A DNA stretch of 64,000 nucleotides from Bacteroidaceae bacterium (lineage in GTDB: Bacteria; Bacteroidota; Bacteroidia; Bacteroidales; Bacteroidaceae), in the NCBI GenBank assembly GCA_017469925.1, contig JAFUFK010000005.1, positions 84,684 through 148,683 on the forward strand, given 5' to 3'. Below are positions 22,441-64,000 of the stretch, piece by piece. The first letter of the stretch is position 1, and every line of letters starts with the position of its first letter. Position numbers and translations under genes: made by a program. Below the pieces are notes generated by a model that did not search any database, had not been told where the DNA came from, and saw only the letters and a list, made by a program, of their open reading frames with translations.

Positions 22441-22563
22441 TCCCCATCTCATACCGTTAGGTTTGAGGTTTAGTAAATAAGTTTAGTTTCTCGTGCCCCG
22501 CGGCCTGCGATAGGTAGCGGGGTACTTTATTGTCTGTTTATGATAGGCGAACCATGCCATCGG

Positions 22564-22685
22564 GGTAGTACAGCCTCGGCGTCATGGTAGTACAGCCTTG
22601 GCGCGATGGTAGTACAACCTCGGCATGATGGTTGTACAACCTCGGACACATGCTATATGCAATCTCGGCCATAAGGCTTATGCCC
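22564..22685. repeat. 22-bp-period array with palindromic centres, six units
   Basis: Twelve-base cores begin exactly every 22 bp at 22564, 22586, 22608, 22630, 22652 and 22674: GGTAGTACAGCC twice, GGTAGTACAACC, GGTTGTACAACC (a perfect palindrome), GCTATATGCAAT and AGGCTTATGCCC. The 10-bp linkers follow a loose TCGGNNNNAT pattern. It fills the gap between the convergent secreted-protein gene and folE. Confidence 0.85.
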
Positions 22686-46194: not shown

Positions 46195-46578
46195 TTAGTC
46201 GGAAAGGTCGAAGAAGTCGTCCAGCTGGCGGCGTTCCTTCTTGGTGGGGCGTCCCGTGCCTCGGGCACGATCGACGAAACCACTGATGCGGCTCATCTCC
46301 AGCAGTTCGTACTGGTCGTCGGGGGTCACGTTCTCCAGCACCTCAGGCACCAACTTCGCGCCCACGCGGTTTTCGATGGCTTGCAGGATGCGGAACGAGT
46401 AGGTGACGGGGGCCTTCCTGACCTCTACCACCTCGCCCACACGCACCATGCGCGAGGGTTTCACCTGTTGGCCGCCGATGGCCACCTGGCCTCGCTTGCA
46501 GGCTGCCGCAGCCAGGGTGCGTGTCTTGTAGATGCGGGCGGCCCAGAGCCACTTGTCGATGCGTGCTTCCGTCGTCAT
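46195..46578 (-). CDS. S4-domain RNA-binding protein (Hsp15-like)
   Basis: The 127-aa protein has an S4 domain at the N-terminus ([40 protein letters not shown]) and a basic end ([18 protein letters not shown]). Hsp15 homologues bind stalled 50S subunits carrying peptidyl-tRNA. The start at 46578 overlaps the pepT stop by 4 bp, which points to co-translation; the longer upstream frame lies inside pepT. Confidence 0.88.
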
Positions 46579-47807
46579 TGGGCCACCAGTTTGCAGATGT
46601 TGATGACCGTCTCCGTGGCCCGCTCCATACTCTGGATAGGCACGAACTCGTGACGCCCGTGGAAGTTCAGTCCGCCGGCGAAGATGTTGGGACAGGGCAG
46701 TCCGCGGAAGCTCAGCTGAGCTCCGTCGGTACCCCCTCGGATGGGAATCACCTCGCACCGCCCGCACGCTTCCTCGATGGCCTTCCGGGCTATGTCGGTG
46801 ACGTGTGGTTTGTCCTCCAGTTGCTCCCGCATGTTACGATACTGGTCGCGCAGGACGAGGGTGGCCGTACCTCTTCCGTAGGTTTCATTTATATGGTCTA
46901 TTAATGTGGTAATCTGTTGTTTACGTTCGTCAAATTTCTGTGCATCGTGGTCGCGGATGATGTAGCTCAGGTTTGCCTCCTCCACGCTCCCATTCATCTG
47001 GGTCAGGTGGTAGAAACCCTCGTAGCCCTCCGTCGTCTCGGGCCGTTCGGCCTTGAGTGCCTCCACCAGTTCGTGGGCCACCAGCATGGCGTTCACCATC
47101 TTGCCCTTGGCATAGCCGGGGTGGACGTTGCGGCCGCGTATCGTAATCTTGGCCGAGGCGGCGTTGAAGTTCTCATACTCCAGTTCGCCCACCTCGCTGC
47201 CGTCCATCGTGTAGGCCCATTGGCAGCCGAAGCGCTCGACGTCGAACAGCCGGGCTCCCATGCCAATCTCCTCGTCGGGGTTGAAGGCCACGCGCACTCG
47301 CCCGTGCTCCACCTCGGGATGGGCCAGCAGCCACGTCATGGCCGTCACTATCTCGGCGATGCCCGCCTTGTCGTCGGCCCCCAGGAGGGTCGTCCCGTCG
47401 GTGACGATGAGGTCCTCGCCTCGGTGCCTGAGCAGTTCGGGGAACTCGCTGACGCGCGTCACCACCTCGTCGTTGAGCCGGATGTCCTGGCCCTGATAGT
47501 CGCGTATGATGCGTGGACGCACGTTCGCGCCCGAGCAGTCGGGACTCGTGTCCATGTGTGCGATGAATCCTATGCAGGGGATGTCCCTCGTCGTGTTTGC
47601 CGGCAGTGTGGCATAGACGTAGGCGTGCTCGTCCACCACCACGTCCTCCAGTCCCACCTTTGTCAGTTCATCCCTAAGGTACTCGGCCAGTCGCCATTGC
47701 TTCGGGGTCGAAGGGCACTGGTCCTCGGCCTCCTCGCTCGATTGCGTGTCAAATGTCACGTAGCGCAGAAAGCGCTCAGTCAGTTCTTCAGTATATTTCT
47801 TTTCCAT
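46575..47807 (-). CDS. pepT: Peptidase T (tripeptidase)
   Basis: Cytosolic dinuclear-zinc aminotripeptidase of the M20B family. The 410-aa protein has metal ligands in [13 protein letters not shown] and LLGADDKAG, the catalytic Glu in [11 protein letters not shown], and the C-terminal metal-binding [14 protein letters not shown]. The ATG at 47807 gives the canonical N-terminus [17 protein letters not shown]; an in-frame ATG at 47885 would lie upstream of the promoter. It is the first gene of the long minus-strand run to GH3. Confidence 0.95.
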
Positions 47808-47815
47808 ATTTGGGT

Positions 47816-47847
47816 CAAAGGTACGAATAAGCGAGCGAAAAAGCAAA
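47816..47847 (-). promoter_or_regulatory. Promoter of the pepT run, very short leader
   Basis: Minus-strand TTTG (47844-47847), 20-bp spacer, TACCTTTG (47816-47823). The box ends 8 bp before the pepT ATG, so the leader is only a few nucleotides. Confidence 0.65.
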
Positions 47848-47922: not shown

Positions 47923-48083
47923 TTCGGACATGACCGAACCATCGTTCAATGCGCATTGAACGAACGACCGATGCGCATCGAACGAACGTTCCATCGCGAT
48001 GGAACGACGAAAGGTTCTCATCGTTCGTCCGCGGACGAACGAACGTTCCACCGTGGTCGAATCATCGTTCCACCGCGGCCGAA
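47923..48083. repeat. 22-bp-period array of seven 16-bp palindromes with changing sequence
   Basis: Cores of 16 bp begin at 47923, 47945, 47967, 47989, 48024, 48046 and 48068, all 22 bp apart except one 35-bp step. They read TTCGGACATGACCGAA, TTCAATGCGCATTGAA, ACCGATGCGCATCGAA, TTCCATCGCGATGGAA, TTCGTCCGCGGACGAA, TTCCACCGTGGTCGAA and TTCCACCGCGGCCGAA. The second, fourth and fifth are perfect palindromes, and the rest have one to three mismatched pairs. The ends TTC...GAA stay while the middle changes. Six-base linkers are mostly CGAACG or NCATCG. It lies between the divergent pepT promoter and the DUF4468 gene. Confidence 0.92.
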
Positions 48084-48190
48084 CGACGTAAGGGACGAGA
48101 ACTTTTCCGCCGAATCCCTTTGTCGTTTCGGAATCTCTTCGTAAATTTGCAACGTGTTCAAGTGAGAACACACCCTTTTATTGCTCAATT

Positions 48191-48307
48191 CTCTGCCGAA
48201 TTAGGACCTCGTAAGAGACATAAGAGCGAACCCGATACATGTTGGAACTACGCAATAGCGTAGGCCTTGTCCATAATGTATCGGAGGCAGTCCTAAGCCT
48301 GGCAGAG
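48191..48307 (+). other. Large nested stem-loop ahead of the DUF4468 gene
   Basis: Four helices nest around one centre: CTCTGCC/GGCAGAG (48191-48197 with 48301-48307), TTAGGAC/GTCCTAA (48201-48207 with 48290-48296), CCGATACAT/ATGTATCGG (48232-48240 with 48276-48284) and CTACGC/GCGTAG around an AATA loop (48248-48263). This could be a structured RNA, a leader element or a hairpin-ended mobile remnant. It does not resemble a tRNA, and no coding sequence fits it. Confidence 0.75.
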
Positions 48308-48400
48308 ATATGGTTGGGTCTGCGCTTCTTCTTTTTTGTAAGAGTTAGTGCTGACGGTGAGATGAAGGACACATTTAGTATTAACTTAAAAATAAAAAAC

Positions 48401-49087
48401 ATGAAAAGAATTTTATTAGTAGTATGTGTGCTGCTTATGGCTTTAAATGCTAACGCGCAATTGATGAGAACCGAAGAACTAGATGCTTATGCAAAAGAGA
48501 AGTATGGAGAAAAGTGGACAGAAGCCGCTGAGAATCTAGCATCGACTCTTTCTTTGGACAAGAACAACTCGATTACCTACTCCCAAGTCGTAGAATGCCC
48601 CGGGCAGACCAAAGAGCAGTTATATGTATTACTTAATTATTGGTTCTCAGCATCTTTTAATGATGCGAATTCAGTCATTCAGTTGAATGATAAGGAGCAA
48701 GGAGTAATCATAGCTCAGGGCTATGTCTCAAACGTTGCTCAACACACAGGTGGTTCAAATGCTTATGTGGTCGACCTTAAGCCTGTTATTAAGGTCGATA
48801 TCAAAAATGAAAAGATACGCATCACTTATACTCTTCAGGGCTATAATGTTATAAAGTCCGTTGGCGGCGGAATCTTGGGAGCAATGTCTGGAGTTCGCCC
48901 AACAAATGTAGAACAGGTGTGGGTTCTAGAAAAAACATTTCCTTTTGCCGAAAAAGATGCATATAAAGCCAAGAAAACGGAATCAAAGGCTCTTGTAATG
49001 GCCCATGCCTATTCTAATGTAATAATGGATAAGATAGAAGAAGCCGTAAAAAATGGTATCGTAGGAAACGAAAATGATGACTGGTAA
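48401..49087 (+). CDS. DUF4468-type secreted protein
   Basis: The 228-aa protein has a signal peptide (MKRILLVVCVLLMALNANAQ) and a body with the DUF4468 look: SQVVECPGQTKEQLYVLLNY, a middle VIIAQGYVSNVAQH, and VVDLKPVIKVDIKNEKIRIT. Function unknown; members are probably periplasmic with a TBP-like fold. The gene is clearly AT-richer than its neighbours (A/T-ending codons such as TTA, AAA and ATA are common), suggesting more recent acquisition or relaxed codon selection. ATG at 48401 is set by the signal peptide. It is monocistronic, followed by a terminator hairpin. Confidence 0.75.
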   Translation: MKRILLVVCVLLMALNANAQLMRTEELDAYAKEKYGEKWTEAAENLASTLSLDKNNSITYSQVVECPGQTKEQLYVLLNYWFSASFNDANSVIQLNDKEQGVIIAQGYVSNVAQHTGGSNAYVVDLKPVIKVDIKNEKIRITYTLQGYNVIKSVGGGILGAMSGVRPTNVEQVWVLEKTFPFAEKDAYKAKKTESKALVMAHAYSNVIMDKIEEAVKNGIVGNENDDW

Positions 49088-63860: not shown

Positions 63861-63920
63861 AGACTTACGGGCGTTTTTTTTGTCGTTTCGGCTTCCGACC
63901 TTTGCCGATTGTCCTTTCGG

Positions 63921-64000
63921 CACAAAGCCTTAGGCGTTTCGACATAAAGACTTAGGTGTCTCGTCGCAAAGCCTTAGGCGTTTCGTCAAAAGGCCTTAGG
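63921..64000. repeat. 22-bp tandem array at the right edge, three full units and one partial
   Basis: Units begin at 63921, 63943, 63965 and 63987, with consensus CRYAAAGNCTTAGGYGTYTC then GW. Each is centred on GCCTTAGGC or ACTTAGGT. The array runs off the window. It lies about 60 bp upstream of the glucokinase promoter. Confidence 0.85.

Follow-up and report, generated by a model that had tools for sequence, protein, structure and literature searches.

Why should a genome keep, beside a peptidase gene, a row of short palindromes that hold their symmetry from unit to unit and change their sequence? The question is raised by positions 47923-48083 of the window, by which is meant the whole stretch of 64,000 nucleotides that was analysed; it belongs to a genome of 2.87 Mb in 28 contigs (G000). 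A first-pass annotation had described seven 16-bp palindromes at this place and had offered several explanations, and these are taken up below together with the results that bear on them.

Layout of the array and its surroundings

Seven 16-bp dyads were counted, in agreement with that description. Four of them occupy 47923-48004 (no strand assigned) and start at 47923, 47945, 47967 and 47989, with 7, 8, 6 and 8 of the 8 possible pairs; the right-hand group of three, 48024-48083 (again without strand), starts at 48024, 48046 and 48068 with 8, 6 and 6 pairs. Three of the seven dyads are thus perfect and four imperfect, as had been stated, one of the four having seven pairs and three having six. 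The 22-bp lattice holds for most of the row and fails at one step: from the fourth to the fifth unit the distance is 35 bp, i.e. a slip of 13 bp, and all other steps are 22. Likewise, the common ends TTC...GAA are found in 6/7 units, the exception being the third (47967), which starts with ACC. The last three dyads of the left-hand group (47945, 47967, 47989) are referred to as module A, with cores ATGCGCAT / ATCGCGAT, a type also present upstream of a gene for an HU-wHTH protein described below; the three right-hand dyads, with CCG/CGG cores, form module B.

The divergent neighbour of the array is a putative pepT-like peptidase gene (46575-47807, minus strand), so labelled in the first-pass annotation. 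On its side a -7-like box, reading TACCTTTG on the minus strand, occupies 47816-47823; the centre of the first dyad is 107 bp away. Towards the other side, a promoter-like pair lies on the plus strand at 48119-48149, consisting of TTTG (48119-48122), 19 bp and TAAATTTG (48142-48149), which we take to be of the Bacteroidetes type. The start of this box at 48142 is 58 bp from the end of the array, the corresponding distance at the HU-wHTH gene being 57. Further along come a structured RNA and, downstream of it, a small secreted-protein-like gene (48401-49087, plus strand), whose start codon was picked by its signal-peptide-like beginning. As a known RNA family over the array, Rfam gave only sub-threshold matches (mir-278 over module B and snoR100 beside the array), which were taken as chance.

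Lag-22 stretches were detected in the window at 22564, 47941, 48018 and 63913. They include two further arrays with no strand assigned, at 22544-22657 (GGTWGTACARCC core) and 63906-64000 (GCCTTAGGCG type, cut by the window end); other arrays of the same period with different cores had been noted in the annotation.

A repeat class of the genus

Array windows were defined by at least 34 of 50 matches at a given lag. In 720 kb of G000, 36 windows pass at lag 22, against none at lags 20, 24, 25 and 26, five at lag 21, nine at lag 23 and between 0 and 4 at each of the remaining lags from 10 to 43; the multiples of the periods are also visible, with 20 windows at lag 44 and seven at lag 46. Base shuffles of the G000 sample gave no window at lags 20-24. 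Because of the excess at lag 22 and the empty shuffles, the array pattern must be regarded as real and far beyond chance, and it extends outside 47923-48083. Nearly all of these arrays (37/38 in 784 kb of G000) are intergenic, the gene boundaries being codon-usage calls made for this analysis.

Lag-22 arrays number 47.2 per Mb in G000 (34 arrays, 720 kb). Two samples drawn from congeneric species give 46.8 and 45.0 per Mb (16/342 kb and 18/400 kb); the family's other genera give 3.8 per Mb (a single array, 267 kb), and the 254 kb sampled from other families contain none. The lag-21 control gave 5, 6, 5, 5 and 0 arrays in the same five sets in the same order. At this sampling, lag-22 arrays are a class of this genus, and the proposal of a genome-wide 22-bp repeat class holds for the intergenic DNA of G000 and of its genus.

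The class comprises many unrelated dyad cores on a common build, a dyad of about 16 bp followed by a variable spacer of about 6 bp. Core families in G000 include F1 (GTGCCACNNATGGCAC, found at 21 double-unit places), F2 (AAGAYGCGCGTCTT), F4 (GAACCATGGTTC), F5 (AAGATAGTTATCTT), F6 (CAAAATACCTATTTTG), F8 (AACCAGTSACTGGTT) and F12 (GGTTGTACAACC). The cores had been supposed to be specific to each locus; they are specific to families instead, several of which are scattered across the genome at many loci.

Palindromic tandem repeats without function could in principle be a mutational by-product of slippage or of hairpin copying, since self-complementary tandem units could arise in this way, and the dominance of one period would fit. 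Basic replication machinery, however, should be common to the other genera and families in which next to no arrays were counted; moreover, the F4 core is kept while its spacer varies (by eye), and at the HU-wHTH genes the distance to the promoter is fixed. An origin of this kind is therefore scarcely credible.

Three other repeat observations belong here. Lag-22 arrays of a second kind, with CCTAAT/CTTAGG cores, flank palindromic arrays of G000 at L031:9556-9803 and at L040, L049 and L054. Eight intergenic lag-23 arrays occur in 784 kb of G000 (on contigs C6 and C19, e.g. C6:121785-121894), and six of the eight belong to the GTTA..TTAAC type, in which the dyad centre is odd. An F6 array is duplicated together with a leader of about 70 bp (G000:C19:63208 and C19:226255), and the copy at C19:63208 is absent from the HU-HIG places matched by profile.

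Arrays upstream of HU-HIG genes

Members of the HU-HIG family (PF18291) are numerous in these organisms, with 19 matches in G000 and 2-12 in 24 other genomes of the genus. Genomes of other families, of which 16 were searched, have 1 to 4 each, except G035 with 12; since that genome, which stands outside the lag samples, belongs to another family, the number of HU-HIG genes alone does not define the array class.

In G000, 8/16 HU-HIG genes (16 of the 19 matches were examined) have a lag-22 array in the roughly 400 bp upstream, as compared with 21/503 other genes of the G000 sample with an array within 400 bp upstream (Fisher p 3e-7). Over 13 genomes the figure is 19/46, with equal counts for 700 and about 400 bp; the other 27/46 are without such an array in their vicinity. 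The cores differ from gene to gene (GAACCATGGTTC, AACCAGTSACTGGTT, GGATAATTATCC, CAAAATACCTATTTTG, AAGACGCGCGTCTT, AAGATAACTATCTT), i.e. different HU-HIG proteins go with different cores, and for F5 and F6 both gene and core are common to G000 and G014. A Mantel test between proteins and arrays (45 arrays) gave rho 0.59, with a null maximum of 0.26 in 1000, a correlation that may in part reflect common descent. Among the loci examined, no HU-HIG gene adjoins core families F1, F7 and F9-F13 or the lag-23 arrays.

The distance to the promoter recurs as well. From the centre of the last dyad to the -7 box it is 63.0 bp at four HU-HIG genes other than the HU-wHTH gene, with unrelated cores; other distances are 175.5 bp (C22), 41 bp (C18a) and 107 bp (G020), and at five more HU-HIG genes no -7 box was found.

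The HU-wHTH gene and its upstream array

The member of the family that concerns the present array most directly is the HU-wHTH gene at G000:C19:288390-289004, which has the module A core directly upstream, module B cores being absent from that place. Its product matches PF18291 over residues 1-125 with 64.5 bits (cut-off 26.2). Residues 142-201 give a weak match to the winged helix of Penicillinase_R (18.4 bits, below the cut-off of 22.6); the product thus probably carries a C-terminal winged helix, whose putative recognition helix was assigned by alignment. A search for relatives of solved structure returned none that was convincing. The protein was matched in 67/139 genomes of the genus.

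For the upstream regions, 30 HU-wHTH loci were taken, one from each of 30 genomes. A lag-22 array is present within 300 bp upstream in 26/30, and every other lag from 15 to 30 gave 0/30. The G000 gene itself has two dyads only, below the lag-22 threshold; L245 has a longer leader, with its array some 300 bp upstream, and L241 and L247 have none by the threshold test. Between array and gene there is a TAnnTTTG -7 box in 26/26 arrays, and the distance from array end to box is exactly 57 bp in 21/26, though the cores differ. The remaining five distances are 58, 59, 60, 46 and 90 bp, of which 46 and 90 (off 57 by 11 and 33) are expected if the choice of dyad phase was off by half-steps of the lattice. 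In L239 and L245 the box is likewise at 57 bp.

At this fixed place it is the symmetry that is conserved. The 78 units of the 26 loci amount to 69 different 16-mers; even so, 458/624 dyad positions pair, as against 279 +/- 17 when the right half is taken from another species (maximum 340 in 2000 shuffles). Since palindromy had guided the choice of dyad phase, a test independent of phase was run as well, and 20/26 loci show palindromy at p < 0.05. Sister species keep a three-palindrome array at the HU-wHTH gene, at an unchanged distance from its promoter, with protein and palindromes changing together. The earlier suggestion of selection on symmetry, on behalf of a dimeric DNA-binding protein, gains support from this excess over half-swapped controls, and the excess of compensatory change that had been looked for upstream of pepT, whose relatives have no array, is found upstream of the HU-wHTH gene.

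The other purpose once proposed for the symmetry, the formation of cruciforms or hairpins, is not needed, given that the array is upstream of the promoter box in all 26 cases. The same placement bears on the idea that the arrays act as RNA hairpins in transcripts, as terminators or stabilisers. The palindromes could fold, and 6/7 F1 arrays of the sample are located 4-103 bp after a stop codon; but with the promoter box between array and gene in 26/26, the array is outside the HU-wHTH transcript, an argument that covers the HU-wHTH genes and not F1, and co-variation with a helix that reads DNA would be hard to expect of an RNA element. We hold this to be very improbable.

Recognition helix and outer dyad bases

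Residues 170-171, at the predicted start of the recognition helix, follow the outer bases. A non-basic residue 170 together with His171 agrees, yes or no, with TTC ends in 26/26 rows, and Arg170-Asn171 agrees with CTN in 25/26, in classes of residues and ends that were drawn up post hoc, after the table had been seen. Omitted from the rows were L241 and L247 (no arrays) and L242 and L259 (phase unclear); the assignment of L255, L239 and L245 was made by eye. A tree computed with these columns removed yields three independent pairs, each of them agreeing (sign test p 0.25); the apparent co-variation of residues and dyads rests on about three independent changes, too few for significance.

The sharpest case is that of closely related proteins. 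Those of L264 (genome G104) and L267 (genome G282) differ at 12/206 residues, three of them on the recognition helix (171, 175 and 178), and their dyads, three each, agree at 32/48 bases (examples CTCCTACATGAAGGAG and CACATACATGTATGTG). Between the proteins of L264 and L266 there are 13 residue differences, all outside that helix, and the dyads agree at 47/48. The three loci form a natural mutant series by which a protein-DNA code becomes testable. The G000 protein has Leu-His, and the TTC...GAA ends of 6/7 units in the array at 47923-48083 are as the code says.

Copies of the array elsewhere in the genome

Was the array, then, acquired for pepT? In a set of 30 pepT loci including the present one (for L136 only 141 bp of upstream DNA), none of the 29 relatives shows a lag-22 array in the 300 bp upstream, by which a conserved element specific to pepT is ruled out. 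The closest pepT relatives have 76-78% amino acid identity, and in L120 lag-22 arrays are found more than 1 kb upstream.

BLAST with the array gave 37 matches in G000, grouped here into 15 loci, and in 40 relatives weak matches in one only (G003). Modules A and B stand alone or joined: joined at seven loci, including 47923-48083, with B alone at two others. An outward -7 box (TAnnTTTG) lies 35-92 bp from the array at 11/15 of these A/B loci, the same test at random intergenic points giving 1467/12000; for helical phasing, the test over these 15 loci reaches significance on just one of the two sides (p 0.003 and 0.30). The adjoining genes, as named from their sequences, are presumably of mixed housekeeping kinds, and one target gene we take to be ruvB. 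One A/B array is upstream of tmRNA; the tag of this tmRNA and the promoter type both suggest Bacteroidales. A match to module A in other organisms, one stretch of a Paraburkholderia contig, was taken as chance.

Similar dispersal is seen for the dyad of another species: that of the HU-wHTH gene of G013 is found at 91 places in G013 and at none in 19 other genomes of the genus. By a weaker test, the count of CAYATACATGTATRTG, there are 6 places in G005, 5 in G013 and one each in G282, G050, G067 and G080, with none in 14 other genomes of the genus; the G282 core was found once only in G282 itself. Near the dispersed F2, F4, F5 and F6 arrays of the sample no -7 box was found, which speaks against promoter control as a general role of all dispersed arrays. 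Operators of HU-type proteins thus appear to be dispersed, and the evidence for promoter placement points to the A/B family only.

The array beside pepT shares up to 96% identity with those elsewhere in the genome, and duplication therefore contributes to the pattern, which the first-pass annotation had set against simple duplication. Near-identity of this degree at separate loci calls for some copying process, and it leads to the main competing explanation, namely that the arrays are selfish palindromic repeats of a MITE- or REP-like kind, moved by a transposase, which the HU-HIG genes merely carry as upstream insertions. Several A/B copies have, by eye, ends resembling inverted repeats (CCYTTTCRTCGTTC-like), the seven F1 copies of the sample are set in unrelated flanks, and the BrickBuilt repeat of P. 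gingivalis is described as a 23-nt minisatellite inside a MITE (PMC4596501). Insertion alone, however, would not be expected to hit one and the same spot, precisely 57 bp from the -7 box, in 21/26 arrays at the relatives of one gene, nor to let the sequence be replaced with the symmetry kept. Y1/RAYT transposases are, besides, below cut-off in G000 and in 12/15 other genomes of the genus examined. Mobility as the full explanation is accordingly unlikely, though the arrays may well be mobile in addition.

The rivals considered here explain dispersal or palindromy, not a fixed promoter distance together with co-variation of protein and site. Two specific origins were also rejected. For RAYT/REP in G000, Y1_Tnp reaches 20.4 bits against a cut-off of 23 in an assembly that is 86% complete; for a phage or viral origin, scans that reach close relatives only found in viral contigs neither a close relative of HU-wHTH or of the HU protein of F2 nor the array motif.

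Proposed working of the array

The array is very probably a set of operator sites for the protein encoded at C19:288390-289004, in which an HU-HIG domain would be joined to a C-terminal winged helix. The sequence shows the arrays, where they stand and how symmetric they are, that they are paired with HU-HIG genes and that helix and dyad apparently co-vary; from this we infer binding, dimerisation, bending and a sign of regulation. Dimers would bind the 16-bp dyads, whose outer bases the winged helix would read; adjacent dimers, 22 bp or two turns apart, would stand on one face of the DNA, and the HU part would bend or stack it. The array would be situated about 65 bp upstream of the -7 box, counted from the centre of the last dyad. 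Since it is upstream of the -33 box, activation or an architectural role is likelier than steric repression. At its own gene the HU-wHTH protein would act in cis, i.e. by autoregulation; operator copies would serve near about a dozen other promoters of G000, the present one between pepT and the promoter that fronts the structured RNA.

The most economical account would be one of paralogous HU-type regulators that bind their own promoters and further sites and whose specificity changes fast. A wider picture is conceivable, though we put it forward tentatively and would not yet count on it: a genus whose HU-fold regulators diversify rapidly, each with a private code on a 22-bp lattice, its operators homogenised over dozens of sites per genome, with the result that, from one species to the next, a regulator and its regulon would change code jointly by concerted evolution, the arrays being spread by copying. 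The results raise a general question about transcription factors, namely how dozens of sites change in step with their regulator. Operator function would also account for part of an intergenic repeat class that is present in these genomes at a density of about 46 per Mb.

Relation to known systems

REP, BIME and REPIN elements with their RAYT proteins are dispersed intergenic palindromes, some of them in clusters, and in these respects resemble the present arrays. They differ in that G000 is without a RAYT over the cut-off and that its arrays have a strict 22-bp lattice, a fixed promoter distance and, as cognate protein, something other than a transposase. Rows of several 16-17 bp dyads in front of a regulator's own promoter are familiar from the operators of phage lambda and from class I activator sites. 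Autoregulated repressors and activators are thus alike in having tandem dyads upstream of their own promoters; the differences are that the protein is HU-like here, that copies of the array stand at other loci and that the cores are replaced between species of the genus.

The HU-HIG family itself is the nearest match on the protein side, in that the gene beside the module A core passes the cut-off of PF18291 and the genus is rich in paralogues, and differs in that the paralogues are here paired with arrays of 22-bp dyads. A paper on the HU superfamily by Burroughs and co-workers, which appeared in Cell Cycle in 2017, reportedly treats HU-HIG. It is cited (Burroughs et al. 2017, Cell Cycle 16:1093) in PMC12218091. 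In the open-access literature searched, no described binding site of an HU-HIG protein was found, and the present results provide a concrete hypothesis of such a site, which opens a so far undescribed protein family, and the code by which it would read DNA, to direct testing.

No paper on 22-bp palindromic arrays in Bacteroidales was found in the open-access literature either; palindromes are mentioned in the available part of PMC5771137 only within the name CRISPR. The nearest description is BrickBuilt of Porphyromonas gingivalis, whose 23-nt intergenic arrays, 19 elements in one strain, are described with promoter elements (PMC4596501). The likeness is in intergenic arrays with a period of about two helical turns. 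BrickBuilt differs in being one repeat sequence in a MITE, with leader and tail, and the consulted part describes no link to an HU-type protein; the lag-22 class has a main period of 22 and many cores, with no common leader or tail in the families compared. In Table 1 of that paper, BrickBuilt_14 adjoins a PF00216 (HU-type) gene, which may be a related pairing in another family.

Structured RNAs behind array promoters

Downstream of the promoter-like pair, a rod-like structured RNA is predicted at 48156-48345 on the plus strand (z -4.2 vs shuffles), and it would probably be transcribed from this array-side promoter. It resembles 6S RNA in shape only, and Rfam gave no match on the plus strand over 48156-48345. 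A similar RNA is present in the species G012 (L084:18070-18285, 79% mean column identity), where it too is preceded by a lag-22 array (from 17902), whose core is different. In G000 a second rod-like RNA was seen on contig C19 (L057:15463-15662, z -3.9); it follows a copy of that promoter stretch (92% identity), with tmRNA on the opposite side of the array.
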